In this document: positions 14,678-33,827 of the stretch, in pieces
Numbering within the stretch: the stretch's first letter is position 1
Layout: every line of letters starts with the position of its first letter
DNA from: Pseudophaeobacter sp. EL27
GTDB taxonomy: Bacteria > Pseudomonadota > Alphaproteobacteria > Rhodobacterales > Rhodobacteraceae
DNA length: 64,000 nt
Assembly (NCBI RefSeq): GCF_900313025.1
Contig: NZ_OMPQ01000004.1
Coordinates: forward strand, 125,606 to 189,605
Direction: 5' to 3'
Notes under the pieces: generated by a model
The model's input: only the letters and a program-made list of their open reading frames with translations
The model's database searches: none
Told to the model about the DNA's origin: nothing
Translations under genes and position numbers: made by a program

Positions 14678-14719
14678 GGCTCCTGTAACACCAAACATTC
14701 CCGCATAAGGACATTGCTC

Positions 14720-15778
14720 ATGCCCGCCCCGCACAATCCGTTCAAAGCCGCCATGAAAGCCGGAAAGCCGCAGATGGGCTGCTGGCTGGGACTGGCTGAT
14801 CCTTATGTGGCGCAGATCAGCGCCGGGGCCGGGTTTGACTGGTTGTTGATCGATGCCGAGCATGCGCCCAATGATCTGCGCTCGATCACCGCGCAGATGC
14901 AGGTGCTGGCCGGGTTTGACAGCCATGCCATTGTCCGCCCCACCATCGGCGAGACCTGGATGATCAAACAGTATCTGGATGCCGGCGCCCAGACCCTGCT
15001 GATCCCCATGGTCGAAAGCGCCGAACAGGCGCGTGAGTTGGTACGGGCCGTCACCTATCCGCCCCATGGCATCCGCGGCGTTGGCTCTGCCTTGGCACGG
15101 GCCTCTAATTTTTCGGCTATTCCGGATTATCTGCAGACCGCAGATGCCGAGATCTGCCTGCTGGTGCAGGTGGAAAACCGCGCGGGCATGGCGGCGCTGG
15201 ATGAGATCCTGCAGGTCGAGGGCGTCGACGGGGTCTTCATCGGTCCGGCGGATCTGGCGGCTGACATGGGCTATATCGGCAATGCCGGCGCCCCCGAGGT
15301 GGAGGCAGCGGTGCTGGAGGCCATGGGCAAGATCGTCGCCTCAGGCAAGGCTAGCGGCATCTTGACCCTGGACCCTAAGATGCAGCGCGCCTGTCTGGAT
15401 GCCGGCGCCACCTTTGTGGCCACCAATATCGACGTCACGCTCTTTGCCGCTGCGATGCGTAACACCGCCAAGGCAGCGCTGGCGCTGCTGCCGGACCAGA
15501 ACGCAACGGGTGGCGCACAAACTGAAAGCGCCAGTCGTTACCTGCAACAGCTGTGCAAACACTGGTCCCATAAAGGTACGGCTGAGTTTGATGCGGATAA
15601 GGGCAGTGTGCGTTTTGCCAGCGGCAACCGGGTTGAAATGAGCGCCTCAGCCGAACAGCTGAAGATCTCCGCCACCACAGGGCCGCGTGGCGATCTGGAA
15701 CAGTGGAAGCAGGTGATTACAGATCACCTGGTGCGCTTTGCCTTCCGAGAAGAGCTGGTCATTGAATGGGCGGAATAA
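14720..15778 (+). CDS. hpaI: 4-hydroxy-2-oxoheptanedioate aldolase fused to a DUF2218-like domain
   Basis: 352 residues, about 90 more than a normal HpaI. Residues 1-258 are the class II pyruvate aldolase of the HpcH/HpaI family: DAEHAPND with catalytic H48, R73 in IVRP, the metal ligands Glu in VQVENRAG and Asp in FIGPADLAADMG. It releases pyruvate and succinate semialdehyde, closing the hpa pathway. Residues about 269-352 (ESASRYLQQLCKHWSHK... FREELVIEW) match my knowledge of the stand-alone DUF2218 family. The join is in one continuous frame with no repeat or stop. Start ATG 14720 has AAGGA at 14707-14711; a TTG two codons earlier is unlikely. Followed by a hairpin at 15787-15806. Confidence 0.9.
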   Translation: MPAPHNPFKAAMKAGKPQMGCWLGLADPYVAQISAGAGFDWLLIDAEHAPNDLRSITAQMQVLAGFDSHAIVRPTIGETWMIKQYLDAGAQTLLIPMVESAEQARELVRAVTYPPHGIRGVGSALARASNFSAIPDYLQTADAEICLLVQVENRAGMAALDEILQVEGVDGVFIGPADLAADMGYIGNAGAPEVEAAVLEAMGKIVASGKASGILTLDPKMQRACLDAGATFVATNIDVTLFAAAMRNTAKAALALLPDQNATGGAQTESASRYLQQLCKHWSHKGTAEFDADKGSVRFASGNRVEMSASAEQLKISATTGPRGDLEQWKQVITDHLVRFAFREELVIEWAE

Positions 15779-15833: not shown

Positions 15834-17000
15834 TTAGTCGGTACCCGACAGGTCGCGCGTAAAGATCTTGGCCTCAACATCGCGGATGTCATCAGTCACC
15901 CGATTGGCCACGATGACATCAGACACCTGCTTAAAGGCCTCCAAATCCCCCACCACAGCTGAGCCAAAAAACTCATCCTCCTGCAAGACAGGTTCATAGA
16001 CGACGACCTTGATCCCTTTGGCCTTGATCCGCTTCATGATGCCCTGGATTGAGGAACGGCGGAAATTATCCGATCCGGCCTTCATCACCAGACGGTAGAT
16101 GCCAACCACGTTGGGCGCTTTGGCGATAATCTGCTCTGCAAGGAAATCCTTCCGGGTATGGTTGGCATCCACAATTGCCCGGATGAGGTTCTGCGGCACC
16201 TCGGAGTAATTCGCCAGGAGCTGCTTCGTGTCCTTGGGCAGGCAGTAACCGCCGTAACCAAAGGAGGGATTGTTGTAATGATTGCCGATCCGGGGATCAT
16301 AGCCGATACCCTCGATGATCTGACGCGCCTCCATGCCACCCGCCATCGCATAGCTGTCCAGCTCATTAAAAAACGCCACGCGCATGGCGAGATAGGTATT
16401 GGCAAAGAGTTTGATCGCCTCGGCCTCGCTCGGATCAGTAAAGAGAACAGGCACGTCTTTCTCAACGGCGCCCTCGATCAACAAATCAGCAAATCTGCGG
16501 GCGGCTTCTTGCTGTGAGCCAACAATGATCCGCGAGGGGTGCAAGTTGTCGTAGAGCGCCTGACCTTCGCGCAGAAATTCAGGGGAGAACATCAGGTTAC
16601 TGATTCCAAGTTCGGCACGCAGTCGCTGAACAAAGCCCACAGGAATGGTGGACTTGATGACAATTGTGGCCTGCGGGTTGACCGCCAGAACCTGACCAAT
16701 CACCGCCTCAACACTGGAGGTGTCGAAATAGTTGTTATCGGTGTCATAATCGGTTGGCGTCGCAATGATCACAAACTCTGCATCACGATAGGCCGCCTCT
16801 GCGTCAAGCGTTGCTTCCAACTGCAAGGGGCTGTCGGCAAGAAAGGCCTCGAGCTCTGCATCAACGATGGGACACTCACGGGCATTGATCATATCGACCC
16901 GCTCTTTTGTCACATCCACCGCTGTTACTTGATGGTTTTGAGCTAGCAAAACCGCATTCGACAGGCCTACATATCCAATTCCAGCAACGGCAATCTTCAT
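15834..17000 (-). CDS. ugd: UDP-glucose 6-dehydrogenase
   Basis: 388 residues, the length of the short E. coli-type Ugd, which oxidises UDP-glucose to UDP-glucuronate with two NAD. The NAD site GIGYVG is at 7-12; IATPTDYD and KSTIPVGF are the family blocks; the catalytic Cys is C253 in [12 protein letters not shown], with Lys following for substrate handling. UDP-glucuronate feeds exopolysaccharide or LPS. It diverges from a second nucleotide-sugar dehydrogenase across 198 bases, which suggests a shared regulatory region for surface sugar supply, although no glycosyltransferases lie nearby. Confidence 0.93.
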
Positions 17001-17198
17001 TTCACACCTACACTACTCTTCCCCATGCGGTCACGTATGTAGTCGAAATGAACAGCCAAGCCAAACCGTTAAGGACAACCCTGATCAATCGACGTGACCT
17101 TCGCTGTAGCAGGGCTGGTCGCGGACCCACCGAGTGGCTATATGAGCACTAATAAAGACGCTTTCCCATGGATCGTCACAGAAGTGCAGGAGCAAAGC

Positions 17199-18458
17199 AT
17201 GCAGGATCAGATTTGCATCATTGGCCTTGGCTATGTTGGCCTGCCTCTGGCGGCGGCTTTTGGTCGCCACCGCCCTACCCTAGGCTTTGACATCGACAAA
17301 GAGCGCATCACCGAGCTGCGCGCTGGAGATGATCAGACCGGCGAAACCTCTGTACAAGAGCTCGCCGAAGCAACCCAACTGGCGCTCACGTCTGACCCGG
17401 GCGAAATTGCCGAGGCCAGGATCTATATCGTCACCGTGCCCACCCCTGTGGACACTAGCCACCGTCCCGATCTGCGCCCCTTGCTGGCGGCCTCAAAAAC
17501 CGTTGGAGCAGTGTTGAAACCCGGCGATCTGGTGATCTATGAAAGCACCGTTTACCCTGGTGCCACAGAAGAAGATTGCGTGCCGGTTCTGGAAGCAGAA
17601 TCCGACCTGCGGTTTAATCAGGATTTTTACGTCGGCTACTCGCCAGAGCGGATCAATCCCGGTGACAAAAACCGCCGCTTGCCCGATATTGTCAAGGTAA
17701 CCTCCGGCTCGACCCCCGAAGTCGCCCTGCGTGTCGACGCGCTGTACAATGAGGTTGTCACTGCCGGCACCCATCTGGCGCCCAGCATCCGTGTGGCCGA
17801 GGCCGCCAAGGTGATCGAAAACAGCCAGCGAGATATCAATATCGCCCTGATCAACGAGCTGGCAATGATCTTCAATCGGATGGGCATCGACACTGAAGCG
17901 GTGCTGCAAGCTGCCGGCAGCAAGTGGAACTTCCTGCCCTTTCGCCCTGGTCTGGTCGGAGGGCACTGCATCGGTGTTGACCCCTATTACCTGACGCACA
18001 AAGCCGAGAGCCTTGGCTATCACCCGGATATCCTGCTGGCCGGGCGCCGGTTGAATGACGGGATGGGCACCTATGTTGCTCAACAGATGATCAAGGCTCT
18101 GGTCAAACGCGGCAAACCGATGTGCCGGGTACTGGTCATGGGGCTCACCTTCAAGGAAAACTGCCCCGATCTGCGCAACACCCGTGTCATCGATGTGGTG
18201 CGCGGTCTAGAGGACTACGGGTTGATCGTAGATGTGCATGATCCCCATGCCGATCCTGCTGCTGCACGGGCCAATTTAGGGTTGGATCTTGTAAGTCACC
18301 CAGAACAGAACGCCTATGATGGCATCATCCTCGCAGTCGCTCATACCGAGTTCACCGAGATGCAGGAAAGTGAATTTCGGGAATTTGGAACGGCAGATAC
18401 AGTGCTCTACGATCTGAAATACATCCTGCCAGCTGAAGCTTCAGACATCAGGTTGTAA
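17199..18458 (+). CDS. Nucleotide-sugar dehydrogenase, TviB/VipA (UDP-HexNAc) type
   Basis: 419 residues. NAD site GLGYVG at 9-14; VTVPTPVD and YESTVYPG with a Glu-Glu-Asp turn; catalytic C257 in [15 protein letters not shown]; and the C-terminal [16 protein letters not shown] motif that marks the UDP-N-acetylhexosamine dehydrogenases (WbpA/TviB). It probably makes a UDP-HexNAc uronate for a polysaccharide. The start is set by AGGAG (17188-17192) six bases before ATG 17199. A longer frame from 17094 adds a non-homologous leader and is rejected. Substrate choice (GlcNAc or GalNAc) cannot be read from the sequence. Confidence 0.88.
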
Positions 18459-20352: not shown

Positions 20353-21269
20353 TTAGTTGGTTGTGGACCTGTCGCGCTTTTGTGCCCCCCAAGTGCTCGT
20401 TTGAGCCACTTTCCTTTCGAAAGCGACGGGACTTTTCCAGCCCAATGCTAAATGGCGTCGGCGCAGATTGTAGAAGCCGTTGATGTATTTGAAGATGAGC
20501 AACTCGGCCTGCCTACGGGTGCCCCATGTGTCTCGCCAGATCAGTTCAGCTTTGAGCGTCTTGAAGCACGTTTCGACCAATTGCCCGGCAGTGCATGACC
20601 TGGCAGGCCTTCGAGACATTACCCAGCTCCTCTGCCAGGTTCAGCAGACCGGTTTTGTGTTTAATGATCTTGTCGGTAGTATCCAACATCGTGGTTTCCT
20701 CGTTTTGTGGCTGGAGTGCACCACCATCAAAACGAGCAACCATCATCTCGATCAAGCGACGCGCCGTTCCCAGTTCTGTTCGCTGAAAGCGGGGGCGGTG
20801 TCAGATCAGGTCGGAACAAATCAGATAAACGACTTTCTGCTTGAGCAACCGCCATAACCTTGATGAGGATATTATCGAGATATCGGCCTCTGCCAGCCAT
20901 TGAGATTTTGGCATCAGCTTCGGTTAAAGTGGTGATCCATACCGCTCCTGTGAACTGAGATCCTTGGTTCGTATTCATGATCGCGGGCTTACCGAATTTG
21001 ACGATAGCTTCTTTCAGGGCTTTTACACGAAAGTTGGCGCCCGGTGTGTTCGATAGTCTTCAGGAGAACACCTTACGCGTAGCCCAATCCTTAATCGCAA
21101 CCAAGTACAGGAACCCATGGCGGACTAGAATAAAGGTGACATCGCTACACCCAGCATGGATTGGCCGCGTGACCGTCAGCCTCGCTATCTTCACATGAAG
21201 TTCTTTGACGACAGCCTTGTAGTCTTCCGCTTTCCTGAACCTATTCGAAAAACTACCTCCCTTCGTCAT
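20353..21269 (-). pseudogene. Decayed IS3-family OrfB with an IS481 fragment inside
   Basis: Read on the minus strand, 21269 to about 20850 encodes scattered pieces of an IS3 OrfB catalytic core (VTFILVRHGFLYLVAIKDW, then NTNQGSQFTGAVW and ISMAGRGRYLDNILI) in different frames with stops. The C-terminal part reappears at 20619-20353: FKTLKAELIWRDTWGTRRQA, INGFYNLRRRHLALGWKSP. Between them, about 20790-20594, lies the beginning of an unrelated IS481-type transposase. So an IS481 element entered the IS3 copy, and most of it and part of the host element were then lost. No piece can be active. Confidence 0.78.
20594..20689 (-). pseudogene. N-terminal fragment of an IS481-family transposase
   Basis: ATG 20689, preceded by a GAGGA ribosome site, starts MLDTTDKIIKHKTGLLNLAE followed by ELGNVSKACQVM, the helix-turn-helix opening of IS481 transposases. 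Similarity stops after about 32 residues, where the sequence returns to the surrounding IS3 OrfB. Nested and non-functional. Confidence 0.7.
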
Positions 21270-21402
21270 TCCTGTATCCTGTCGTCGATCTTAAATTCAT
21301 CATAGCTCGCTGGCCAGTTTTGCCAGCACACTTCAAATGTGCCGGGTCACAGGAAAATCACACAGCCTAACTAAACTGGGGGATAGGCAGCGACGCAGGC
21401 AG

Positions 21403-22323
21403 ATGAAAAGGGATTTTCGAGGCATGGCAGCACCCAATGACAGGCCAGAGAGAAAAAATGAAGACGCCAACCAGCTGCTGGCGCACTGGACCCGTCATGA
21501 CTGGCGCGAGGTTCTGACGGCGCCCAATCTGTGCGTTCTGCAGGCGCTCGCGATAGCTGGCGCCACAGCCAGCGGGGCCGGTGATACGCGCGAAGAGGCG
21601 CTGGAATGCTGTCTTGGCGAAACGGCGGAAATCGCGGCGCAGGCGGCGCTACGCGCTGCAGGCTTACCACCGGTTGCAACCGGGCATTCAGGCGTTGCCG
21701 CCCATTCGGATGATCAGGCGGCGCAGCGACTCGCAGTGTTTGAGGCACATGAACGCGCTGCCATCTGGTCCTGGTGGCTGGGCCAAACGGCGGCGCGGCC
21801 CGTGGCGCCGGACTGGGTGGCGGAGCGCAGGATTGACGTCTGGCTTGACGGGATGCGGCAAGGCGCCGTTCAGCGCCGCAAGACAGGTGTCTGGCTGCTG
21901 GATCATCCAGGCCCGGTTTCGGTGGCTGTCGGCCACGCGCATGGGGGCTCCGGTCAGGACCCGATCCTGGGCTTTGGCGCCGATCTTGATCCGGAGCGCT
22001 CGGTGCGCAAGGCCTTGCGCGAGACATTGTTGATGGAACTCAACCTAGGTGAAGTCCTGGCGGCGCGCAGCGGTCATAGCGACCAGGACACCAGCGCCAT
22101 CGAAAACAAGATTGCACTCTACGTTCGGCGCTGCCCCGCGCTGCTGGGGACGGGCGGGTGGATTGAACCTGCCGAAACGCCGCCCGGCGCCGATGCGGCA
22201 ATATTTGATGGGGTGACGCTGCGGGACATTACTCCGACGGACCAGCTGCGCCGGGTCTGGAGTTGCACATTGCCAAACAGCGGCGATTTCGACCTGCATG
22301 GGCAGGGGTCGCCCTTCATGTAA
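21403..22323 (+). CDS. Short stand-alone YcaO-like enzyme
   Basis: 306 residues from ATG 21403. YcaO enzymes use ATP to activate amide backbones (azoline, thioamide or amidine formation) or act on ribosomal S12. The three acidic ATP/Mg motifs are present in order: GAGDTREEALECCLGETAE (E73/E76), LAVFEAHERAAIWSWW (E114, E117, R118) and FGADLDPERSVRKALRETLL (E207, E212). The C terminus ends GQGSPFM, where many YcaO proteins end in a Pro-rich tail. It is shorter than usual (about 380-450), and no fused E1-like or ThiF domain is present. No precursor peptide or TfuA partner is obvious nearby. It leads an operon with a haem peroxidase (14-base gap). ATG 21424 or an upstream in-frame codon at 21337 are alternative starts. 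The family call is from motifs only. Confidence 0.7.
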   Translation: MKRDFRGMAAPNDRPERKNEDANQLLAHWTRHDWREVLTAPNLCVLQALAIAGATASGAGDTREEALECCLGETAEIAAQAALRAAGLPPVATGHSGVAAHSDDQAAQRLAVFEAHERAAIWSWWLGQTAARPVAPDWVAERRIDVWLDGMRQGAVQRRKTGVWLLDHPGPVSVAVGHAHGGSGQDPILGFGADLDPERSVRKALRETLLMELNLGEVLAARSGHSDQDTSAIENKIALYVRRCPALLGTGGWIEPAETPPGADAAIFDGVTLRDITPTDQLRRVWSCTLPNSGDFDLHGQGSPFM

Positions 22324-22337
22324 CCGGGAGATTTTGA

Positions 22338-23726
22338 ATGACCATTGCACCCAAAGTCGACGAAACCAGCACCGCCTTTCAGAGCGAAGCCGGTCACTGC
22401 AAGGATCAGAGCTGGGTCAGCGATCACAGTTGCACAGGGGTGGCCTCAGAAGACACCAGTGGCAGCGGGGCGGTGGGGCGAGGTGTTATAGATTTTGCCG
22501 GACAGGATTGGCGTGAGGCCTGCATCGCCTCAAAACAACACATTCCAGCAGGGTACACCTATCTGGGCCAGCTGATCGGGCACGATATGGGCCACAGTGT
22601 CCCGAACAGCCAGGTGCCCTACGCGGTCCGCCCCGGCGATGCCACCGATCACCGGCCCAAGCGTCACAACGCCATCGAAAACCCGCTGACACTGGAAACC
22701 CTTTATGGTGCTGGTCCTCGCGTTCTGCCGCATCTCTACGATCAAAAGACCCAGCTGTTCCGCATCAACCCCATGAGCGTCATCACGCTACCCCACCTTA
22801 CTGACGATCCTAGCGTCCGCGCTATCGCCGATGCCCGAAATCGCGATGTTCACATCCTGCATCGCATGACGGCGATCATGATGCGCTACCACAACCACAT
22901 CGCCCAGCAGTTCTATGACGCGCTGTCATCAACTTCGAAAGAACGCCGCCACCTGGCTTTTTCTCTGGCGCGCAACCATGTGTTACACAGCTGGATAGCA
23001 GTTATCCGCGAGGATTTCCTGCCTCAGTTCCTGGCCCCCGAAGTCGCAGCAATCCCGATGAGGGAGTTGAGAAAGTTCGAGGTCATCGACGCGATCACCA
23101 TGCAACATGGGGTGATGCGCGCCTTTCATACCTTGCCACGCAGGGCCTACAAGTTTCCAGAACTACGCGATCTTGGGGCTTTGGTACTGCGCTCCTCCCA
23201 GCACAATGAGCGCAAGCTGAGCAGTTGGCCGCTCGACTGGTCGCTGTTCTTCGACCCCGCGCGGGAGGGCACCAAGACCGGGATCTCAGCCAGCTTTTCG
23301 CCAGCGTTCCGGCCTCGGGGCGGAGTGACCATCGACAAGCTTGATGCACGCACCGCGCGTGATCTTGGTCCCCAGCGGCTGGATGGTTCGGACATCCAGC
23401 AGGTATTGGCACTGATGCCGTCGAAATGGTCCGAGCGTCTTGCTCCAGCCGCACTTGCCCGGGATTTTACCCAGAAAGTGGCCAAACCTCAGGGGCTTAA
23501 GCTGACCGAGGGCGAAGTCAAGCGTTGCCATATCCACCTCATCCTGATGATCGAAGCCCAGCTTTATGGTGAAAACGGTCGCTTTGGCCCGCTGGGCAGT
23601 CTGCTGCTACGCTGCAAAATCGAAGAGGCCATCGCCAATGTGCGCATGGTTACCCCCAGCGCGGTTGCGCCAATACTGCCCCGGCCCAACCGCTTCATCC
23701 AGATAATCAATACCGTAATTTCCTGA
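22338..23726 (+). CDS. Animal-type haem peroxidase family protein
   Basis: 462 residues. The core motifs of the An_peroxidase superfamily (myeloperoxidase, LPO, bacterial homologues) are visible: distal GQLIGHD (Q78, H82, D83), the Asp/Arg block IADARNRDVHILHRM near 163-177, MRYHNHIAQQF (183-193), REDFLPQFL (224-232), and a proximal His in GVMRAFHTLPR (H264). These are catalytic elements for H2O2-dependent oxidation or halogenation with haem. No signal peptide is present; residues 1-48 are a low-complexity Cys/Ser/Thr/Gly-rich stretch. The usual REHN reads RYHN, so the Glu that makes an ester bond to haem in mammalian enzymes is absent. Second gene of the YcaO operon. Substrate unknown. Confidence 0.8.
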   Translation: MTIAPKVDETSTAFQSEAGHCKDQSWVSDHSCTGVASEDTSGSGAVGRGVIDFAGQDWREACIASKQHIPAGYTYLGQLIGHDMGHSVPNSQVPYAVRPGDATDHRPKRHNAIENPLTLETLYGAGPRVLPHLYDQKTQLFRINPMSVITLPHLTDDPSVRAIADARNRDVHILHRMTAIMMRYHNHIAQQFYDALSSTSKERRHLAFSLARNHVLHSWIAVIREDFLPQFLAPEVAAIPMRELRKFEVIDAITMQHGVMRAFHTLPRRAYKFPELRDLGALVLRSSQHNERKLSSWPLDWSLFFDPAREGTKTGISASFSPAFRPRGGVTIDKLDARTARDLGPQRLDGSDIQQVLALMPSKWSERLAPAALARDFTQKVAKPQGLKLTEGEVKRCHIHLILMIEAQLYGENGRFGPLGSLLLRCKIEEAIANVRMVTPSAVAPILPRPNRFIQIINTVIS

Positions 23727-23741
23727 CGAGGAGGGGACAAG

Positions 23742-24476
23742 ATGGACAAATACATCATCGTAGGCCGCAAGGTCGATGGCGGCGGAACCAAGTATCTGCA
23801 CCAAGACGGCGACATCAGTGCTGACCCGATTAAAGAGGGCGTGCCCGGCGAGGCCCTGGATGTGGAGTTCATCGGCAGGACCGTGGTTGAACTGTCGCGC
23901 GGTGGTCCGCTGGACGAGGACACAACCGCCTATAAATGCGCGGCTGAACAGCTGCGTCAGGCTATGGCGGTCGTACCAATGGATCAGATGCATGATCTGA
24001 ACGATCCCGCGATCACACAGATTCACGACAAGTTCCAGCTCAAACTGCAGTGGGACGAACGCCGGCCGGACACGGATGGTGTCGACGTGAATTCTCGCAC
24101 TTTGGTCATCCCAGTGCAAAACACTCTGGCTGAACGCGCGGCCTATTTCAGCACCCAAGCCAACCAGCCGGGCTATGAGCCGCCGCTGACCTACACGCTT
24201 GACCACCTGATGGTGAAGCACTTCTATGACGGCCTACTCGACAAGGCTCTGAGCGACGTACAGGCAGGTGCGGCCGATCTGTCAGATGACACAAAGGAGG
24301 CCATCAAGGCGCAGGTGAATGCCAGTTGGGCCGCTTCAACCGCGCTCGACAATGACCTTGGATCCGAAGAAGAAGAGGAAGATCCGACCCGCAAATCCAT
24401 GGCGCGCATTCTTTCCTCGCCATTGTCAGCCTTCCACCGTGCTGTGGGTATCTACATCACCAACATGTGCGACTAG
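23742..24476 (+). CDS. Uncharacterised 244-aa protein of the YcaO-peroxidase operon
   Basis: I do not recognise this protein. It has 244 residues, starts MDKYIIVGRKVDGGGTKYLH, is acidic overall, and has an extreme acidic run GSEEEEEDP near residue 206. No signal peptide, membrane helix or Cys-rich metal motif is visible, although the C terminus ends ITNMCD. The start has a GAGGAGGGGA ribosome site, 15 bases after the peroxidase stop. The last 51 bases overlap, tail to tail, the 3' end of the regulator gene on the other strand. Options include a substrate or carrier protein for the two enzymes, an immunity protein or a scaffold; none is supported by sequence alone. Confidence 0.75.
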   Translation: MDKYIIVGRKVDGGGTKYLHQDGDISADPIKEGVPGEALDVEFIGRTVVELSRGGPLDEDTTAYKCAAEQLRQAMAVVPMDQMHDLNDPAITQIHDKFQLKLQWDERRPDTDGVDVNSRTLVIPVQNTLAERAAYFSTQANQPGYEPPLTYTLDHLMVKHFYDGLLDKALSDVQAGAADLSDDTKEAIKAQVNASWAASTALDNDLGSEEEEEDPTRKSMARILSSPLSAFHRAVGIYITNMCD

Positions 24477-26366
24477 CGCTTCTGCCGGCAAAGGCTGTGC
24501 CGCAACATCGTAGAGTGTGTGGCGCAGATCCTCGCGCACATTTTCACTGCGTAATGGAAAACAGGCGACATACCAGTCAATCACGTCGTGCAGATCCGGC
24601 GCTTCGGCCGCGTGCCACAGAGCGCAGATTTCCTGGTGATATTGCTCCAATCGTTGACGCGCGGCCTGCGTCTTGCCCTGCTTGGCCAGGGCTGCGCAGT
24701 GCCAGCCGCCGGTGGTCGACATAAGGCCATCTCCGCCAGCGCAATGCTGGGCTGCGGCTGCAAAATCCCCCAGCAGATAGGTGGTCGCTGCCAGGTAGAT
24801 ATTGTGAAACGGTTCCAGCGTTTCGGGCAGTCGCTCGAGCTCGGACAACATGGTGCGGGCGCGAAGCTCGTTGCCGCAAAATGCAAAACCCAGCATGCTT
24901 GATGCGAGGGTCTGCGTGTTCTGCGGGTTTAGCTGCAGGGATTGCTCAAAATGGAACTCGGCCAGGTCGAACTCATCCTTGTGGCAATAACACCAGGCCA
25001 GAACCCGATGCGCCCGCGTGTCCATCGCATCCGCCGCAACCGCATCCAGCGCATGGGTCAGCGCCTTGTCGCGCAGGTTTGGATCTTGGCGAGTACCGGG
25101 GCGCAGGATATGGCGGATGTTGTAAATCCCCGCAAGTTCCGCATGGGCCGGGCCAAATTTCGGAGCCTCTTGCGTAATGCAGCGCAGCAGCGCCTCGGCA
25201 CGGAGCTCGTCTTCATGCGTCCAGGTCCCTTTCAGCGCCAGGGATTGAAGCCAGCGATCATATAGTTCGGCGCGCCCGTCCTTGCCCTGCCTGTCTGCCA
25301 CCACCACTTGCAAGGCGTTGCTGATGTTCAATATCAACATCCGGACCTTGCCGACCCAGTCGTTATACGGATCCTCCATGATCTCCGACCAGATCAGCTC
25401 GCGATTGCGCGGGTGTACTATCTCGACCAGGAAGCGGTACTGTCCATCCAGTTGGAACAGGCGCGGCCGGATCGCCAAAAAGTCGTTGTCTTCGGGCTCC
25501 GAGGCAATGACCTGCCATTCGCGAAACCTCCCCAGTCTGCTGCGAAGATCAGTTGCCAGAACAGTCTGAAAACTGCTGTCGCGGTCATCGAGTGGCCCCT
25601 GATCGGGCACCTCGACCACCAATGTTACCCGGCTGGGCCGTGCCCGCTTTGACGCGCCCTTGCCTGGGCCGCCCTCGGGGTTCAGCTTGATCGCCGCTAG
25701 CAATTCGATTGTGCTGCTTTCCGGGTCTTGGTCATAGGCCGCGTCCAGGGCCTGATAGAGTAGATTGTAAAGTTCGATCGCCCGGTTTGGGGCGCCTGCG
25801 TTCCAATACTGAAGCATCAAAAATCGCGCTGCCGCCTCGTGGCAGGGATCCAACTCCAGCAAAAACTGCGCCGCCTCTTGCCCCAGCTGCCTGTTAGGGC
25901 GGGCCATCACCTGTTCCAGCGCAGCGCAAAGGCCTGACAGTGCTGTATTGCGGGCAATCGCCAACCAACTGTCGAAATTGTCCGAAATGCCCAACAGCTG
26001 TTCGAACACGTCCAGCAGGTCCAACCCGGTGCGCCGTGCCGCCTGGAACAGATCAGGATTGGACAAGCCTTGCGCCACATCCTCAAACAGGCGCCAGTCG
26101 CGCGGACAATCCAGCATAATTTGGCCATTGCGTGTGATCAGAGGAAAGTGGAACTGGTTCTCTGAGGTAACACGCAAATGCCGCACAGTTTGGCGTAGTG
26201 ACGCGCGCGCCTTGGCCAACTGAGCCTCCTGCCAAAGCAAGTCAATAATCAGTTCGCTGCGTCGTTCTCGCCCCGGTTCAATCACCAGGTAAACTGCCAA
26301 CGCCCGCGCCTTTCTCAGCTTTATCTCTGACAGGAATTCAACAAACGTTTCCGGCGAAATTTTCAT
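24426..26366 (-). CDS. SARP-like transcriptional regulator with BTAD and TPR regions
   Basis: 646 residues. Residues 1-70 form the winged-helix/BTAD opening of SARP-type activators: LRKARALAVYLVIEPGRERR, then IIDLLWQEAQLAKARASLRQ and TVRHLR. Residues about 100-230 are the helical BTAD continuation. The middle (about 250-350) resembles the adenylyl-cyclase-like/TolB-N type segment seen in CadC-like regulators, and residues 390-620 are TPR-like repeats. It converges on the YcaO operon and overlaps the last gene by 51 bases. As the only regulator between the two flanking IS relics, it is the best candidate controller of the cassette. The input signal is unknown. No clear Shine-Dalgarno precedes ATG 26366. 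Confidence 0.8.
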   Translation of the reverse strand: MKISPETFVEFLSEIKLRKARALAVYLVIEPGRERRSELIIDLLWQEAQLAKARASLRQTVRHLRVTSENQFHFPLITRNGQIMLDCPRDWRLFEDVAQGLSNPDLFQAARRTGLDLLDVFEQLLGISDNFDSWLAIARNTALSGLCAALEQVMARPNRQLGQEAAQFLLELDPCHEAAARFLMLQYWNAGAPNRAIELYNLLYQALDAAYDQDPESSTIELLAAIKLNPEGGPGKGASKRARPSRVTLVVEVPDQGPLDDRDSSFQTVLATDLRSRLGRFREWQVIASEPEDNDFLAIRPRLFQLDGQYRFLVEIVHPRNRELIWSEIMEDPYNDWVGKVRMLILNISNALQVVVADRQGKDGRAELYDRWLQSLALKGTWTHEDELRAEALLRCITQEAPKFGPAHAELAGIYNIRHILRPGTRQDPNLRDKALTHALDAVAADAMDTRAHRVLAWCYCHKDEFDLAEFHFEQSLQLNPQNTQTLASSMLGFAFCGNELRARTMLSELERLPETLEPFHNIYLAATTYLLGDFAAAAQHCAGGDGLMSTTGGWHCAALAKQGKTQAARQRLEQYHQEICALWHAAEAPDLHDVIDWYVACFPLRSENVREDLRHTLYDVAAQPLPAEALVAHVGDVDTHSTVEG

Positions 26367-26945: not shown

Positions 26946-27806
26946 TTATTGGGTCAGGGTCCGGACAGTCTGGGTCTGAATGCCAAGCTTTTCGATACCG
27001 AGGCGCATCGTTTCACCACCCGACAAATAGGTTGGTGGCTTCATTCCCATGCCGACGCCAGGCGGCGTACCGGTTGAAATGATGTCGCCGGATTGCAAGC
27101 TCATGAACCGTGAACAATACGATATCAGGTGCGGAATTTTGAAAACCATCGTCGCTGTGGATCCATTCTGGTAGCGGGTGCCATCAACCTCTAGCCACAT
27201 CGAAAGGGCGTCATAGTCGCCAACCTCGTCAGGCGTGACCAACCATGGTCCAGTTGGCCCGAAGGTGTCGCACCCTTTGCCCTTGTCCCATGTGCCTGCA
27301 CGCTCGATCTGGAATTCACGCTCAGATACATCGTTGATAACGCAGAACCCTGCGACGTGACCCATTGCATCGGACTCAGCGATATAGCTGCCGCCTTTGC
27401 CGATGACGACGCCCAGTTCGACTTCCCAGTCGGTCTTTTTGGAGTCGCGTGGGATAAGGACGTCGTCATCTGGTCCCACAATGGCCGAAGTCCATTTGTT
27501 GAAAATCACCGGCTCCGTTGGAACCTCCAAGCCGCTTTCAGCGGCGTGATCTGCATAATTCAAGCCGATGCAAACAAATTTTCCTGTCTGACCAACGCAT
27601 GGCCCAAGACGCAAATCGACCTGCGGTCTGCCCTCAACGATGGGTAAGGATGCAACATCCAGGGACTTTAAGCCCGCAATCGAGTCTGGAAGAAGTGCTG
27701 CCCCGGCGATGTCATCAACATGCCCCGAGAGGTCGCGGACGCGCCCCTCCGCATCAAGACAACCAGGTTTTTCCTGACCTTTGGGGCCGTAGCGTAATAG
27801 TTTCAT
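26946..27806 (-). CDS. FAH-family hydrolase, probable 2,4-diketo-3-deoxy-L-fuconate hydrolase
   Basis: 286 residues from ATG 27806 (GAGGA just upstream); a longer frame to 27971 is rejected because the extension is non-homologous. FAH fold: CIGLNYADHAAES, the metal ligands in TDWEVELGVVIGKGG and the loop GDIISTGTPPGVGMG. It is the last gene of the minus-strand fucose operon. In the non-phosphorylative L-fucose route an FAH enzyme cleaves 2,4-diketo-3-deoxy-L-fuconate to pyruvate and L-lactate, and every other step of that route is encoded beside it. Ureidoglycolate lyase or an hpaG-type activity would be the guess without context. Confidence 0.85.
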   Translation of the reverse strand: MKLLRYGPKGQEKPGCLDAEGRVRDLSGHVDDIAGAALLPDSIAGLKSLDVASLPIVEGRPQVDLRLGPCVGQTGKFVCIGLNYADHAAESGLEVPTEPVIFNKWTSAIVGPDDDVLIPRDSKKTDWEVELGVVIGKGGSYIAESDAMGHVAGFCVINDVSEREFQIERAGTWDKGKGCDTFGPTGPWLVTPDEVGDYDALSMWLEVDGTRYQNGSTATMVFKIPHLISYCSRFMSLQSGDIISTGTPPGVGMGMKPPTYLSGGETMRLGIEKLGIQTQTVRTLTQ

Positions 27807-27873
27807 GTGGTCCTCGGACATCAAAGAAAGGGAAGCTGTCGCAGCCCCAGGAAGGGCGGCGACAGTGGTAAGA

Positions 27874-28821
27874 TCAATCGTACAGGACGGCGTGGATCTT
27901 AGCGTCGTCAATATTGGATTGGTCGTAGTAGTAAAAGCCAGTGTCGATGATCTCTGGCAGTTCTTCGCCATTCATCGCGGCAACCGCGGCACGAACGGTT
28001 TCGTAGCCAATGCCAACAGGGTTCTGTGTGATCGCACCGGCCATAAGGCCTTCTCGGATTGCATCTGTCTGGGCTTTACCCGAGTCATAACCGATGATGG
28101 TGACGCCTTGCGCATTCATTTCACGCACTGCATTTACGATCCCGATTGCGGAACCTTCATTGGTGCCGAACATACCGCCCAAACCAGGTTCGGCTGTCAA
28201 GATGGCCTTCGCAACCTCGGTTGACTGCAACTGATCACCTGCGCCGTACTGAACACTGACAACTTCGATGTTTGGATATTCATTTTTCATCCGGTTCAGG
28301 AAACCATCGCGACGATCGATGCCGGTGCGGCTGGTTTGGTCATGGGCCACAACGGCGACTGTCCCTGTACCGCCAAGGAACTCGGCCATTTTGTCAGCAG
28401 CCAATGAAGCAGCGGCGACGTTGTCAGTGGTGGCCGTAGAGACCGGAATGTTACTGTCGACGCCACTGTCAAACGCAATCACAGGGATGCCAGCCTCGGT
28501 GGCCTGACGCAGCAGTGGAATAGCGGCTTGACTATCCAGCGCGGCAAAACCGATCGCAGCAGGGTTATTGGCCAAAGCAGCCGCCAACATGTCGATCTGA
28601 CGATCCACCATGGTTTCATTGTCCGGACCTTCGAACGTGATGCGAACACCAAATTCTTCAGCAGCCTGATCTGCCCCAGCTTTTACAGCTTGCCAGAACT
28701 GGTGCTGAAAGCCTTTTGAGACCAGGGGTATATAGATTTCGTCCTGCGCAAATGCGGCGGGTGCCGATGCGAGAGCGACTGAGACGCTTAAGGCGCCAAT
28801 GAGGGTACGACGTGACAACAT
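27874..28821 (-). CDS. Sugar ABC transporter periplasmic binding protein (probable L-fucose)
   Basis: 315 residues. Signal peptide MLSRRTLIGALSVSVALASA with an AFA cleavage site near residue 25; a Tat-like RR is present but the core is Sec-like. A type I periplasmic-binding fold of the RbsB class follows (KGFQHQFWQAVKAGADQAA, IAFDSGVDSN, IGYDSGKAQTDAIREG). It captures sugar for the permease and ATPase upstream in the same operon. Ligand identity is inferred from the surrounding fucose genes. Confidence 0.9.
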   Translation of the reverse strand: MLSRRTLIGALSVSVALASAPAAFAQDEIYIPLVSKGFQHQFWQAVKAGADQAAEEFGVRITFEGPDNETMVDRQIDMLAAALANNPAAIGFAALDSQAAIPLLRQATEAGIPVIAFDSGVDSNIPVSTATTDNVAAASLAADKMAEFLGGTGTVAVVAHDQTSRTGIDRRDGFLNRMKNEYPNIEVVSVQYGAGDQLQSTEVAKAILTAEPGLGGMFGTNEGSAIGIVNAVREMNAQGVTIIGYDSGKAQTDAIREGLMAGAITQNPVGIGYETVRAAVAAMNGEELPEIIDTGFYYYDQSNIDDAKIHAVLYD

Positions 28822-28879
28822 GATGCTTCCTCTCCTAGGTTGTCGTTTGACCCGGTTCTCCTCCCGGGTATTGGGCTTA

Positions 28880-29887
28880 TTAGGCTGCCCTATTGCGGCG
28901 CATCATGTCGGCGTAAACCGCCAGAATAATGATCGCACCAGTGACGACGGTTTGCCATTCTTGAGCGACGGACAGCACTCGCAACCCGTTGGTCAGAACA
29001 GCCATAATCAATGCACCGATAAGCGAGCCGAGGATTGAGCCGCGACCGCCTGAAAGGGAGGTGCCACCGATAACCACTGCTGCAATCGCTTCCAGTTCAT
29101 AGCCAAGCCCAAGGGCTGGTTGTGCAGAGTTCAAACGCGACGCGATCAGCAGGCCAGCGATACCAACGATCGCCCCTGCCAGCGCATAGATCACAATCTT
29201 CCAGCGGTCGGTATTTACTCCGGAAAGGCGCACGGATTCCTCGTTTGAACCCAGGGCAAAACAGTATCGACCCAATACAGTGCGGTTCAGGATATAGGCA
29301 GTCACCGCAGCGACGATGAACAAGATCAAGACACCATTCGGGATTTGCAAGCTGGGGATGATTTCACCAATCAGCGACCCGCGCGAAATCTCACTAAAGC
29401 CGGGAGTGTCGTTGAAATAGATCGGCCTTGTACCGGAAATCACGAGGCTCAACCCCTTCAGGATAAGCATGATGCCAAGCGTCGCGATGAACGGTGGAAT
29501 AGCCATCTTGGCAACAAACGTGCCCGAACAGGCCCCGCACAGCGCCCCGGTTAGTACCGCCGCAATTACTCCGAACATTAGCGGAAGCCCTGCGTAGGTT
29601 AGCACCACGCCGGTGATCACTGCACAAAATGTCATCATGGTGCCGACCGAAAGATCGATCCCTCCGGTGATGATGACCAGCGTCACAGCGATCGCCAGCA
29701 CGCCGTTCACCGAGGTCGCCTGCAAAATAGCAATCATGTTAGAGGTCTGCATGAAATTGGGCGAGGCAATCGAAAAGCCGATCAAAAGGATGATCAAACT
29801 TGCAAAGGCCAATACCCGCTGATGGGTTCCCGCCGCTACGATTCGAGCGAGCGTTGACTTGGGCGCATCTAGTGTAGTGGTCGTCAT
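28880..29887 (-). CDS. Sugar ABC transporter permease (RbsC class)
   Basis: 335 residues with 8-10 hydrophobic segments and the BPD_transp_2 signature: [40 protein letters not shown] and [20 protein letters not shown]. The start ATG at 29885-29887 overlaps the ATPase stop by 4 bases; frames reaching back to 30001 are overlap artefacts. It forms the membrane channel of the putative L-fucose importer. Confidence 0.92.
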
Positions 29888-31410
29888 TTCTGATCCTCTG
29901 CGCCAACCAGTGCGGGATCGCGCTGCGTGGCCAATTCCATGATTTGTTCCTGAGTAGTGTTTTCGCCGCCGGGCAAAATGCCGGTCAAACGGCCTTCGCA
30001 CATTACTGCGATGCGGTGGGACAAGCGCATGACTTCGGGCAGCTCAGAGGAGATGACGATGATCGCGCGGCCTTGTGCGGCGAGGTCTTCGAGCAATGCA
30101 TATATTTCTGATTTCGCGCCGACATCTATGCCGCGTGTGGGCTCATCAAAGATCAATACATCACAGTCGCGCAGCAACCATTTGGCGATGACGACCTTTT
30201 GTTGGTTTCCTCCTGATAACAGTCGGACTTCTTGCATGTCCGAGGGCGTGCGAATGCCAAGCTGATCAATGAACTTGACCGCTGTGTCTTTCATTGTCGC
30301 TTCGTTCAGTACGCCTACGCGGCTGGTGAGCTTGTCCAGACTAGCCATGGCGATGTTGGCACGAACAGTCATGTCCACAGCCAACCCAAAGTGTTTTCGA
30401 TCCTCGGACAAATACCCGATGCCTGCTTCGACAGCAGTGTGGGGCGTGCGTATGTTGACCTTCTGGCCATCAATTAGGATCTCACCAGCATCGCGGGGGT
30501 CCGCGCCAAAGATGATCCGCGCAACCTCTGTACGGCCTGCGCCCATCAAACCGGCAAAGCCCAAAATCTCGCCTTTGCGCAGGTCAAAGCTAACGTCGAG
30601 AACGTCCTTACCGCGCGAAAGGTTGCGCACCTCCAAAGCAACAGCGCTTTGCGAAATCTCAGGGATTACGGGCGTATTTTGCGTGACTTCGCGGCCCACC
30701 ATAAGCTGGATAATCTGTGACAGCGGCGTCTCTGCAGACTCGAGCGTATCGATATAGGCTCCGTCACGTAGAATGGTCACCCGGTCGGCGATACGTTTGA
30801 TTTCATTCATACGGTGGCTTATGTAAACGATACCGACACCGTCATTTTTCAGCGTCTCGATCACCTTGAACAACTCGTTGATTTCAGTGTCGTTCAGCGC
30901 TGCTGTCGGTTCGTCCATAATCAGAACGCGTGGGTCATACGACAGCGCCTTGGCGATCTCGATCAACTGTTGGCGCGCGATTGTCTGGGTGCGAACCAGC
31001 GTGCGCGGGTCCATTTTAAGGTTCAGTGAGGCAAAAATCTCTGCGGTCTTGGCGTTCAGCGCAGTCTCGTCCAACCGTCCAAATGCGCGGCGGGGTTCGC
31101 GCCCGATCAGCACGTTTTGCGCCGCTGTCAAATCGTTCATCAGGCTTAATTCCTGATGGATGATGCCAATACCAAGGTCTTGTGCCGCGCGAGGTCCGTC
31201 CGGCGTCACCGGATTGCCATCCACAAACATCTCACCGCCGTCACGAGCATAGATGCCGGACATAATTTTCATTAGGGTCGATTTGCCAGCGCCATTCTCG
31301 CCCATAAGAGCATGAACTTCTCCCGGGCGCAGATCAAACTGCACAGACTTTAGGGCATGCACGCCGGGGAAGCGTTTTTCGATGCCTCTCATTTCGACAA
31401 TATTTGTCAT
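29884..31410 (-). CDS. Sugar ABC transporter ATP-binding protein (RbsA class, two ABC domains)
   Basis: 508 residues with two nucleotide-binding domains. Domain 1 has Walker [13 protein letters not shown] near residue 40 and Walker [12 protein letters not shown]. Domain 2 has a degenerate Walker A region ([12 protein letters not shown]) with LSGGNQQK and [13 protein letters not shown], as usual in monosaccharide importers. It energises the permease and binding protein downstream. The 30-base gap after the SDR gene places it in one operon with the catabolic enzymes. Confidence 0.94.
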
Positions 31411-31440
31411 GGTTTCAGCCCTCCCAAGCCAGTGATCGCG

Positions 31441-32187
31441 CTAGATCGTGCAGCCACCATCGACCAAAACAGATTGACCCGTCATGAACTGGCCGCCGCT
31501 GGACAGCAGCAGAACAATCATTGGTGTCAGATCATCAACCGTGGACAAGCGACCCATGGGTTGGCGTGCGATAAAGTCTTTTTCCGCCTGTACCGGGTCC
31601 AGTGCCGCAGTGATGCGGCCCCGCAAGGCGGGTGTATCGACGGTACCAGGGCAGAGGGCGTTGCAGCGCAAATTCTGCGTAACAAAATCCGCGGCAATCG
31701 CTTTGGTCAGGCCAATCACGGCTGCTTTGGTTGCCCCATAAGCTGTGCGATTGATAAATCCCTTTTCCGAAGATGCCATGGATGACATGTTCAGGATTGA
31801 GGCTGTCCCTTCGCTGTCTGCGCGGCGCAAAAGGCCCGGCACAAACGCGCGACACATCCGCACCATTGATGTGATGTTCAGGTCCAACGAAAATTCCCAA
31901 GCGGCATCATCAAGCTCAAGAACTGAGCCGTGGTGAACGACTCCGGCGCAATTAAACAATCCATCCAAATCAGGAAGATCCGCAGCCAATGCGTTGATGG
32001 CATCCACGTCCGTGACATCCAGCACGCGGGTTTCGATACCATCGACGCCGTCTAGATTGGCCAGCAGATCCGCATTAATGTCAGTCGCGATCACAGTTGC
32101 ACCCGCCGCAGCGCAAGCTCGTGCGCTCGCCGCACCAATACCCTGCCCAGCAGCCGTAATTAGAATTGTTTTGTTGTTCAGTGTCAT
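31441..32187 (-). CDS. SDR dehydrogenase, probable 2-keto-3-deoxy-L-fuconate dehydrogenase
   Basis: 248 residues. Rossmann motif TAAGQGIGAASA at about 11-22, the NAD adenine site after ATDIN, the NNAG-equivalent FNCAG, catalytic Ser in NMSSMASS and YGATK (Tyr-x-x-x-Lys). The start at ATG 32187 is supported by GAGGA 5 bases upstream. In the L-fucose pathway this enzyme oxidises 2-keto-3-deoxy-L-fuconate to the 2,4-diketo acid that the FAH hydrolase cleaves. It lies 14 bases after the dehydratase gene. The substrate is by context. Confidence 0.88.
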   Translation of the reverse strand: MTLNNKTILITAAGQGIGAASARACAAAGATVIATDINADLLANLDGVDGIETRVLDVTDVDAINALAADLPDLDGLFNCAGVVHHGSVLELDDAAWEFSLDLNITSMVRMCRAFVPGLLRRADSEGTASILNMSSMASSEKGFINRTAYGATKAAVIGLTKAIAADFVTQNLRCNALCPGTVDTPALRGRITAALDPVQAEKDFIARQPMGRLSTVDDLTPMIVLLLSSGGQFMTGQSVLVDGGCTI

Positions 32188-32201
32188 ATCGTTCCTCATT
32201 T

Positions 32202-33725
32202 TCACATCATCGCGCCAATCTGCCACGGCACGAATTCCACGCCACCAAAACCCAGGCCTTCGCTTTTGGTCTGCTCGCCGGATGCGATGCTTATGAACAT
32301 CTCAAAAATCTCATTGCCTTTGTCATTCAGGCTGACGCCGTCGCTGACGATGTCACCGCAATTGATGTCCATGTCCTCGGACATACGGGCGTACATTTCG
32401 GAATTGGTCGCGACCTTGATACAGGGTGTCGGCATATACCCCGAAACAGATCCGCGCCCTGTCGTGAATACAATCAGGTTTGCACCGGACGCGATTTGCC
32501 CTGTTACTGAACAGGGGTCGAAACCGGGGCTATCCATAAAGACAAAGCCCTTCTTGTCGATTTTTTCTCCAAACAGATAGACATCCGTCAGCGGCGCGCT
32601 GCCGCTTTTGGCGACGGCACCAAGGGATTTTTCGAGGATTGTAGTCAGCCCGCCACGCTTGTTGCCGGGGCTGGGGTTATTGTCCATCTCACCTTTGTTG
32701 CGGGCGGTATAGTCCTCCCACCAACGGACCCGTTCGATCAGCTTTTCGCCGATCTCGATCGATTCCGCGCGACGAGTCAGCAGGTGTTCTGCACCGTAAA
32801 TTTCTGAAGTTTCAGACAGGATCGTTGTGGCACCATGTTGCACCAGCATGTCCGAAGCCACCCCCAGTGCTGGGTTGGCCGTGATGCCGGAATATCCATC
32901 CGACCCGCCGCACTGCATTCCCAGCATCAACTCGGAAATCGGGGCTGGTTTGCGGGATGCCGTGTTTGCAAGTTCGGCGATACTGCGGAGTTCTTCTAGT
33001 CCTTTTTCAATCGTCTTGCGTGTGCCACCCGTCTGTTGAATAGTCATGTACCGCAGCGCACCATCGGCACGAATTTCACGTCCTCCCACAAGGTCTGCAA
33101 TCTGCATGACCTCGCAGCCAAGGCCAATCAACAAAATACCGCCGAAATTGGGGTGCTGGGCATAACCGGACAGCGTGCGAAACAACGTGTCGTAGCCTTC
33201 GTTGTTCCCAGACATCCCGCAACCAGTGCCATGAGTGATCGGGACAATGCCGTCGATGTTCGGGTAATCGTCAAGCAAGCCGGACTTTTCTGCCGCTTCT
33301 GCAATGAATTTGGCCACTGATCCGGAACAGTTTACTGACGTCAGGATGCCCAGATAATTGCGTGTGCCGACACGGCTGTCAGCACGGTGATAGCCGTTGA
33401 ATGTGCGAATTTTCGTGGAGGCCGCAAGCGGTTTGGCATCACGTGCATGGGCATAGTCGCGGCTGTGTTCCCCCATGCCGAGGTTTTGGATATGCACATG
33501 CTCGCCCGCTGCAATATCCGCAGTGGCCTGCCCGATCGTCTGTCCATAACGCAACACGTTCTGGCCGGCACTGATCGCGGAAATTGCAATCTTGTGGCCC
33601 TGCTTGATGGGTTGCAGCAGCGTAACACCCGTCGCGACATCCACCTCACCCGCTGCAATGTCAGCCAACGCGACAGCAATATTGTCATGCGGATGCAGGG
33701 TCAGTATGCGGGAATGTTGTGTCAT
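32202..33725 (-). CDS. UxaA-family sugar-acid dehydratase, probable L-fuconate dehydratase
   Basis: 507 residues of the altronate/galactarate dehydratase (UxaA/GarD) family: an N-terminal SAF domain (about 1-95: LHPHDNIAVALADIAAGEVD...) and the C-terminal catalytic part with RVGTRNYLGILTSVNCSGSV, HGTGCGMSGNNEG and MQCGGSDGYSGITANPALG. The conserved Cys/His ligands typical of these Fe-dependent enzymes are present. In the studied bacterial fucose pathways L-fuconate dehydratase belongs to the enolase superfamily; here no such gene exists and this protein occupies the slot. First gene of the minus-strand operon, divergent from the GntR gene. Confidence 0.85.
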   Translation of the reverse strand: MTQHSRILTLHPHDNIAVALADIAAGEVDVATGVTLLQPIKQGHKIAISAISAGQNVLRYGQTIGQATADIAAGEHVHIQNLGMGEHSRDYAHARDAKPLAASTKIRTFNGYHRADSRVGTRNYLGILTSVNCSGSVAKFIAEAAEKSGLLDDYPNIDGIVPITHGTGCGMSGNNEGYDTLFRTLSGYAQHPNFGGILLIGLGCEVMQIADLVGGREIRADGALRYMTIQQTGGTRKTIEKGLEELRSIAELANTASRKPAPISELMLGMQCGGSDGYSGITANPALGVASDMLVQHGATTILSETSEIYGAEHLLTRRAESIEIGEKLIERVRWWEDYTARNKGEMDNNPSPGNKRGGLTTILEKSLGAVAKSGSAPLTDVYLFGEKIDKKGFVFMDSPGFDPCSVTGQIASGANLIVFTTGRGSVSGYMPTPCIKVATNSEMYARMSEDMDINCGDIVSDGVSLNDKGNEIFEMFISIASGEQTKSEGLGFGGVEFVPWQIGAMM

Positions 33726-33778
33726 CAGCTGGGTATCTCTGGCTTAGGGGTTTTTGCTTTAGTAGGGTAAGTGCTAGC

Positions 33779-33819
33779 TTGACTCGATGCACCCGTCAAC
33801 TAACATGTCAGTTAAAGGA
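33779..33819 (+). promoter_or_regulatory. Promoter with palindromic GntR operator between the fucose operons
   Basis: TTGACT (33779-33784) and TAACAT (33801-33806), 16 bases apart, make a promoter toward the GntR gene. The near-perfect palindrome AACT-A-ACATGT-C-AGTT (33798-33813) overlaps the -10 and abuts the AAAGGA ribosome site (33814-33819). This is the expected place and size for a GntR/FadR-type operator that would repress the regulator operon and, across the 102-base gap, the divergent dehydratase operon. Confidence 0.65.
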
Positions 33820-33827
33820 CGACAATT

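Follow-up and report, generated by a model that had tools for sequence, protein, structure and literature searches.

Does the combination of a YcaO-like enzyme, an animal-type haem peroxidase and a protein of no recognised family constitute a modification system, and if so, what does it modify? The question is raised by four genes at positions 21403–26366 of a 64,000-nucleotide stretch of the Pseudophaeobacter sp. EL27 genome (contig NZ_OMPQ01000004.1; the whole stretch is referred to below as the window), which an earlier note, made from the letters alone, had proposed to be a modification cassette. We find that the four genes are a conserved unit. The third protein ends in a near-invariant tail of the pattern Tyr-x4-Cys, which goes beyond what the earlier note had described; such a tail, beside the enzyme pair, makes this protein a likely substrate. 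Judged from sequence comparison, the four genes probably specify a stand-alone post-translational modification system that acts on this tail.

Organization of the cassette

The features of the cassette are as follows.

21403–22323, + strand: YcaO protein, 306 residues (PF02624 match, ATP-site residues)
22338–23726, + strand: animal-type haem peroxidase, 462 residues (PF03098 match, active-site residues)
23742–24476, + strand: orphan Cys-tailed protein (gene 3, P0003), 244 residues, probable substrate or precursor (co-occurrence by profile A6; without family match)
24438–24473, + strand: conserved C-terminal tail of gene 3, RAVGIYITNMCD (conservation in relatives; Tyr-x4-Cys pattern)
24453–24455, + strand: tail Tyr238
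24468–24470, + strand: tail Cys243
24426–26366, − strand: BTAD/TPR (SARP-like) regulator, 646 residues (BTAD and TPR matches under cut-off; relatives belong to one profile family with it)

The start of the YcaO gene is ambiguous, with ATG codons at 21337 and 21403. Gaps of 14 bases (genes 1 and 2) and 15 bases (genes 2 and 3) separate the first three genes, as the earlier note had reported, and plausible ribosome-binding sites are present upstream of gene 2 (GGGAGA) and gene 3 (GGAGG). The regulator gene is convergent with this operon and shares 51 bases with the end of gene 3. The domain assignments proposed for the first three proteins hold: the first passes the PF02624 cut-off (E 4.1e-12; 46.5 bits against 25.7) and keeps the ATP-site residues that had been named, the second passes that of PF03098 marginally (E 3.6e-6; 26.3 bits against 25), and searches of Pfam, NCBIfam and PADLOC give nothing for the third.

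Conservation of the four genes

Relatives were sought in 390 Rhodobacterales genomes (the order sample) and in a class sample of 385 genomes. Close YcaO relatives (E <1e-20) are present in seven genomes of the order sample beyond the window's own, and all seven also contain close relatives of the peroxidase and gene 3, adjacent to one another and with 32–45% protein identity. The reverse search with an 18-row gene 3 profile (A6, window type, ~240 residues) recovers exactly the same eight genomes. The earlier note had left open whether the 244-residue protein accompanies the pair and whether the three genes are adjacent only here; the window-type orphan is confined in this sample to the pair-holding genomes, and the trio is adjacent in the seven others and at many more loci. 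A more distant version of the cassette occurs in seven further genomes (loci L060–L064, L075 and L079), giving at least 15 of 390; this is a minimum because the wide stretches compared cover only part of the peroxidase-positive genomes (26 of the 46 with a peroxidase match, plus G107 and G368, reached via their YcaO). The sample includes two genus mates, one with the cassette (G149) and one without (G097).

In the class sample 45 genomes have a YcaO-profile match, and at 20 such places that were examined a peroxidase adjoins in five (L115–L119) and in none of the other 15. Among plasmids, the same six records carry the YcaO, peroxidase and gene 3 relatives; in those of Phaeobacter inhibens P78 (L111) and Paracoccus aminovorans all four genes are consecutive. 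Paracoccus denitrificans DSM 413 (L149) also carries cassette genes, and since this strain and P. inhibens P78 belong to cultivable species, the question is directly testable.

Altogether there are 59 distinct YcaO–peroxidase loci, reaching Bradyrhizobium, Stappia, Belnapia and Stella. They were chosen by similarity of YcaO or peroxidase and not by the tail, and many are related rather than independent events. A scan of genome contigs with the peroxidase profile, from which the best 80 of 488 relatives were used, together with the earlier loci gave 119 peroxidase rows, or 111 distinct ones once eight duplicates were dropped; the same type of scan using the window peroxidase as a single sequence found no relative. 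When frames of at least 100 residues within 8 kb are clustered across the 59 loci, the peroxidase is found in 59, YcaO in 55, the regulator in 53 and the two tail-protein types in 30 and 18. The remaining clusters are antisense to these genes, occur at few loci, or form a probable ABC ATPase family (11 loci, plus seven YcaO-less loci). No further family is as wide as the cassette genes in this clustering; the neighbours were not Pfam-scanned singly, so that a fast-changing or distant protease, exporter or partner could escape it. Across 29 loci of the window type, Mantel tests show the distances of the four proteins to be correlated with one another (r 0.76–0.95, p 0.001 each), most strongly for the peroxidase and the tail protein (0.95), with shared ancestry contributing to the correlation.

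The conserved tail of the third protein

The residues of the tail are mostly invariant in sets of seven and of 18 relatives. At the more distant loci the product of the gene adjoining the peroxidase bears no obvious relation to gene 3 but has the same end: the window protein finishes AVGIYITNMCD, and others finish RVGDYTIAQC-K or RIADYALRKC-V. A second profile (A5, 20 rows, ~120–190 residues) describes tailed proteins of this other type; the window genome is not among its matches, which in the class sample are G618, G481 and G484 (each a cassette carrier) and, marginally, G677 (E 0.002, in a 730-residue frame).

The tail is present at 55 of the 59 loci, as Tyr-x4-Cys-x at the very end in 54 and with two residues past the Cys in L116; the four loci without it are L063, L118, L119 and L161, the last being cut. 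Of 9,101 frames of at least 35 codons from 29 sources, 14 cassette proteins and four others have the strict pattern. Conservation also extends outside the pattern: before the Tyr, a Gly/Ala and an Asp/Ile position are kept in 53/53 proteins and a Val/Ile position in 52/53, or in all 53 if Met is counted with Val and Ile. The tail is not conserved merely through overlap with the regulator gene, as 51 convergent pairs divide into eight that overlap by at least 40 nucleotides, 16 that overlap by less and 27 without overlap.

Presence of the tail follows presence of YcaO. With one or two residues allowed past the Cys, of the 61 distinct peroxidases that have a YcaO no more than 6 kb away, 52 are directly followed by a tail, one carries it fused, seven lack it in this position and one is cut by a contig end; among 50 distinct peroxidases without YcaO, 46 lack the tail, three are contig-cut and a single one has it (L162, whose contig stops where YcaO would be expected). 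Excluding contig-cut rows, this is 53/7 against 1/46 (Fisher p 1.5e-21, the rows not being independent). The seven YcaO-linked misses include L174, where the tail lies upstream, L208, where it occurs at another place in the locus, and also L172 and L210, in which the peroxidase is a second copy next to a tail-bearing one.

At one locus (L064:12422–14449, − strand) the peroxidase itself ends in an A5-type tail domain that shares 44% identity with a Thalassobaculum protein. In this fusion the distal Arg is replaced by Phe, and the PF03098 score (24.3 bits) lies just under the cut-off of 25. No known precursor family matches P0003 or the tail part of ten further proteins, and among 20 A5 members there are none apart from two weak single NCBIfam matches. 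The predicted model of P0003 is weak (predicted local distance difference test score, pLDDT, 67) and that of the L166 protein is better (pLDDT 82). The tail protein of the cassette appears to have a conserved, modifiable C-terminal core, its modification being predicted.

The YcaO enzyme

Residues E73, E76, E114, E117, R118, E207 and E212, which we take to be those of the YcaO ATP site, are invariant or near-invariant in 15 relatives, retained in 56–58 of the 59 loci, and aligned with the corresponding positions of TruD and LynD. Searched against the PDB, the family profile (A1) ranks TruD (E 1.2e-23), LynD and MusD above the archaeal YcaO structures 6ci7 and 6pe3, which are also matched with lower scores. 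The window YcaO ends GQGSPFM and is without the C-terminal PxPxP that is a feature of cyclodehydratase YcaOs, and it scores 40.3 bits on TIGR03604 (SagD-type subfamily), below the cut-off of 219.25. It is the single YcaO match in the whole source genome at E 0.001.

Two further observations concern YcaO-like sequences elsewhere. In Paracoccus a second, longer YcaO-like frame (77–79 bits) adjoins the cassette (L149:14767–16332, L114:14840–16405 and L141:14770–17160, all − strand). L065 (G305:C9:4639–5004, also L015) contains a YcaO-like stretch with four in-frame stops, possibly a relic.

The haem peroxidase

Among 54 tail-linked peroxidases Q78, H82, D83 and H264 are retained in all, and R167 in 53, being absent in the L064 fusion alone. 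By analogy with myeloperoxidase, Q78, H82, D83 and R167 are presumably distal and H264 the proximal haem-site residue. The peroxidase profile (A3) matches dual oxidase 1 (E 3.2e-5). Ordinary relatives also retain the Gln/His/Asp, Arg and proximal His, and the residues therefore show competence rather than specialisation. The window-type protein is an animal-type haem peroxidase with an intact active site, for which haem binding and activity are predicted. One tail-cassette peroxidase of the 54 (L171:9647–11419, + strand) has a Tat-like (twin-arginine translocation) RRxFM motif close to its start, a feature that would point to export.

On a tree of the 111 distinct peroxidases the presence of YcaO requires eight changes, against 36.8 when labels are shuffled. 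A 59-row tree was also built, with 35 of the 61 YcaO-linked and 24 of the 50 other rows; it omits near-copies, L060, L063, L162 and L168, takes every second row of the remainder, and is a quick tree with long branches. In it a branch of support 100 separates 30 tail-cassette peroxidases from 29 rows comprising the 24 others and five YcaO-linked exceptions: L118, L119, L208 and the second copies in L172 and L210. A single clade of all 35 YcaO-linked peroxidases is rejected (p 2.6e-5), as these exceptions lead one to expect.

A proposed mechanism and its alternatives

We suggest that the gene 3 product is a ribosomally made substrate of which the last dozen residues are the part modified, and that the tail is the substrate seems likely from its conservation and its co-occurrence with the pair. 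YcaO would bind ATP and activate the backbone amide of the penultimate Cys, with a thiazoline as the most likely result. This choice of site, which we favour slightly, follows from the family being nearest to thiazoline-forming enzymes; the nearest solved YcaOs form thiazolines at Cys, the classical YcaO target. The peroxidase would oxidise this tail too, with hydrogen peroxide. It is proposed as the oxidiser because the usual oxidising partner is not seen to recur in the clustering and the peroxidase occupies its place. It may dehydrogenate the thiazoline to a thiazole, a step for which known pathways have an FMN (flavin mononucleotide) dehydrogenase, or it may oxidise the conserved Tyr that lies five residues ahead of the Cys; such a Tyr suits a peroxidase, and either outcome is put forward tentatively. 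No further gene recurs as consistently as these, and the modified tail may therefore stay on the protein, a point on which we are evenly divided. The regulator would govern expression. That YcaO and the haem peroxidase make up a peptide- or protein-modifying system, as first suggested in the earlier note, is well supported by conservation and by the intact active-site residues; the note's further proposal, that the peroxidase oxidises or halogenates what YcaO has made, is hypothetical. A more specific and rather unlikely version is that the two enzymes convert the tail into a protein-bound redox group (for example a Tyr-Cys crosslink or a Tyr-thiazole), so that the modified protein is a cofactor-bearing partner of the peroxidase; the L064 fusion suggests such a partnership.

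Several observations weigh against a system of this kind or limit it. The A5 and A6 profiles align weakly (E 0.011, probability 3.8%), so that a common origin of the two tailed families is possible and not demonstrated, and neither the P0003 nor the L166 model has a PDB fold match at E 0.001, which leaves the precursor role without fold support. The PF03098 score of the window peroxidase barely exceeds the cut-off, and in the window YcaO an Ala (SGAG) replaces the Lys of the SGKG motif of TruD and LynD. L063 retains the tail Cys without the Tyr. L208 (1–6772) has a contig-cut YcaO, a regulator and a tail protein, with only an ordinary-type peroxidase nearby, and in L192 (Dongia), counted among the 50 peroxidases without YcaO, a tail with three residues past the Cys accompanies a regulator and peroxidase, with YcaO ~8 kb away. 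L118 and L119 combine YcaO with an ordinary-type peroxidase and a small divergent protein ending RSCASC or RCCAAC. These two loci (L118:8575–12078 and L119:2722–6281) are perhaps an independent YcaO–peroxidase pairing with another Cys core; a likeness of the small proteins to nitrile-hydratase-type leaders was considered, and no profile supports it.

The principal alternatives differ in what becomes of the tail. It could be modified and then freed by a protease whose gene lies elsewhere, the small peptide being exported; the product would be a released RiPP (ribosomally synthesized and post-translationally modified peptide) and the body of gene 3 a very long leader. TruD, LynD and MusD do act on RiPP precursors, and conservation is concentrated in a short C-terminal stretch, like a core peptide; against this, no other family recurs like the four in the clustering (distant genes may escape it), the bodies are 120–250 residues long, and the tail is fused to an enzyme in L064, and we regard release as unlikely. 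Less likely again is that the tail serves for docking or signalling, with gene 3 a scaffold for YcaO and the peroxidase while they modify another molecule. A docking motif would permit one tail on two families with different bodies, and the L064 fusion is compatible with a scaffold, but such a motif would rarely require a Cys precisely beside the end, this Cys is the residue YcaOs classically target, and no other candidate substrate recurs.

It is also conceivable that only YcaO and the Cys-tailed protein form a modification pair, the peroxidase being an independent oxidative-stress enzyme, as might be supposed from the many YcaO-less relatives (50 of 111 distinct genes) and from L208. The support-100 branch that sets the tail-cassette peroxidases apart, the close correlation of peroxidase and tail-protein distances and the L064 fusion make this quite improbable. 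The cassette is evidently accessory, being absent from G097, near an integrase-core fragment and carried by plasmids in relatives, which might suggest that unrelated genes of a mobile region have come to adjoin by chance; maintenance of the unit at 32–45% identity in seven other genomes, and across the 59 loci, leaves this scarcely credible, and the conserved gene order refutes it. A role in anti-phage defence was rejected, as none of the four proteins has a PADLOC match at E 0.1.

Comparison with known systems

Peptide antibiotics and methyl-coenzyme M reductase are the settings in which YcaO chemistry is known, and its partners there are flavin, E1-like or TfuA proteins. The window cassette shares with cyanobactin and linear azol(in)e pathways the ATP-site residues, the best PDB matches and a Cys in the presumed core. 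Those pathways have an E1-like/ocin-ThiF partner, an FMN dehydrogenase for azoles, peptidases and transporters, whereas the cassette has a haem peroxidase as fixed partner and its YcaO is without the SGKG Lys and PxPxP; no E1-like/RRE (RiPP recognition element), FMN dehydrogenase, peptidase or transporter family recurs in the 59-locus clustering, in which neighbours were not scanned one by one. Archaeal thioamide-forming systems resemble it in having a YcaO, matched here by 6ci7 and 6pe3, and no E1-like partner was seen in the cassette, in which the haem peroxidase and Cys tail are additional. TfuA is a partner in thioamide-forming systems; clustering shows no TfuA-like family recurring within 8 kb of the 59 loci, no TfuA profile having been run.

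In borosins the precursor core is at the C-terminus of its own methyltransferase, and split forms exist. The likeness is in a C-terminal core on a large protein, separate from an enzyme or fused to it as in L064; the enzymes and core are different, and fusion occurs in just one of the 59 loci. Other PF03098 peroxidases share the profile match, distal Gln/His/Asp and Arg, and proximal His, whereas the cassette type is tied to YcaO, the Cys-tailed protein and the regulator and has its own branch of the tree. The earlier note knew of no described system with this pairing, and we recognised no description of YcaO with a haem peroxidase in searches of an open-access library; novelty is provisional, as subscription papers and preprints lie outside that scope. 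The peroxidase of PMC8776678 is of the Dyp type, with encapsulin, and a search of PMC4603692 for the term 'peroxidase' finds no occurrence. If the haem peroxidase is indeed a fixed partner of YcaO, it would offer a new way of oxidising peptides or proteins that have been activated at an amide, and the Tyr-x4-Cys tail, in indicating the substrate, also provides a search handle for the whole class.

The regulator and neighbouring genes

The earlier note had described a converging SARP/BTAD regulator. The convergent orientation and the BTAD and TPR similarity stand, and plasmid relatives in the same position are annotated 'BTAD domain-containing putative transcriptional regulator'. The Pfam matches are all under cut-off (BTAD 19.5 bits against 22.1, Trans_reg_C 12.3 against 26.2, and TPR), and the window protein lacks the above-threshold BTAD and DNA-binding domains that would define a SARP; gene 4 may be termed SARP-like through the annotation of its relatives only. 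The family is present by profile at all 15 Rhodobacterales-type loci (at least 590 bits), and three peroxidase-only loci have weaker relatives (187–248 bits). In L113, a plasmid of Paracoccus sp. SMMA_5, the cassette has no adjoining regulator, and a BTAD regulator resembling that of the window is located elsewhere on the plasmid.

An rve_2 integrase-core fragment (20353–20619, − strand), a mobile-element remnant, lies between housekeeping genes and the cassette. To the right, genes at 26946–34538 for a periplasmic sugar-type binding protein, a permease, an ABC ATPase, an FAA hydrolase and a GntR/FCD regulator resemble an ordinary catabolic cluster. Further to the left, a single reading frame (14714–15778, + strand) contains an unusual fusion of an HpcH/HpaI aldolase with DUF2218, and two adjoining, divergent UDP-glucose/GDP-mannose dehydrogenase genes are present at 15834–18458.

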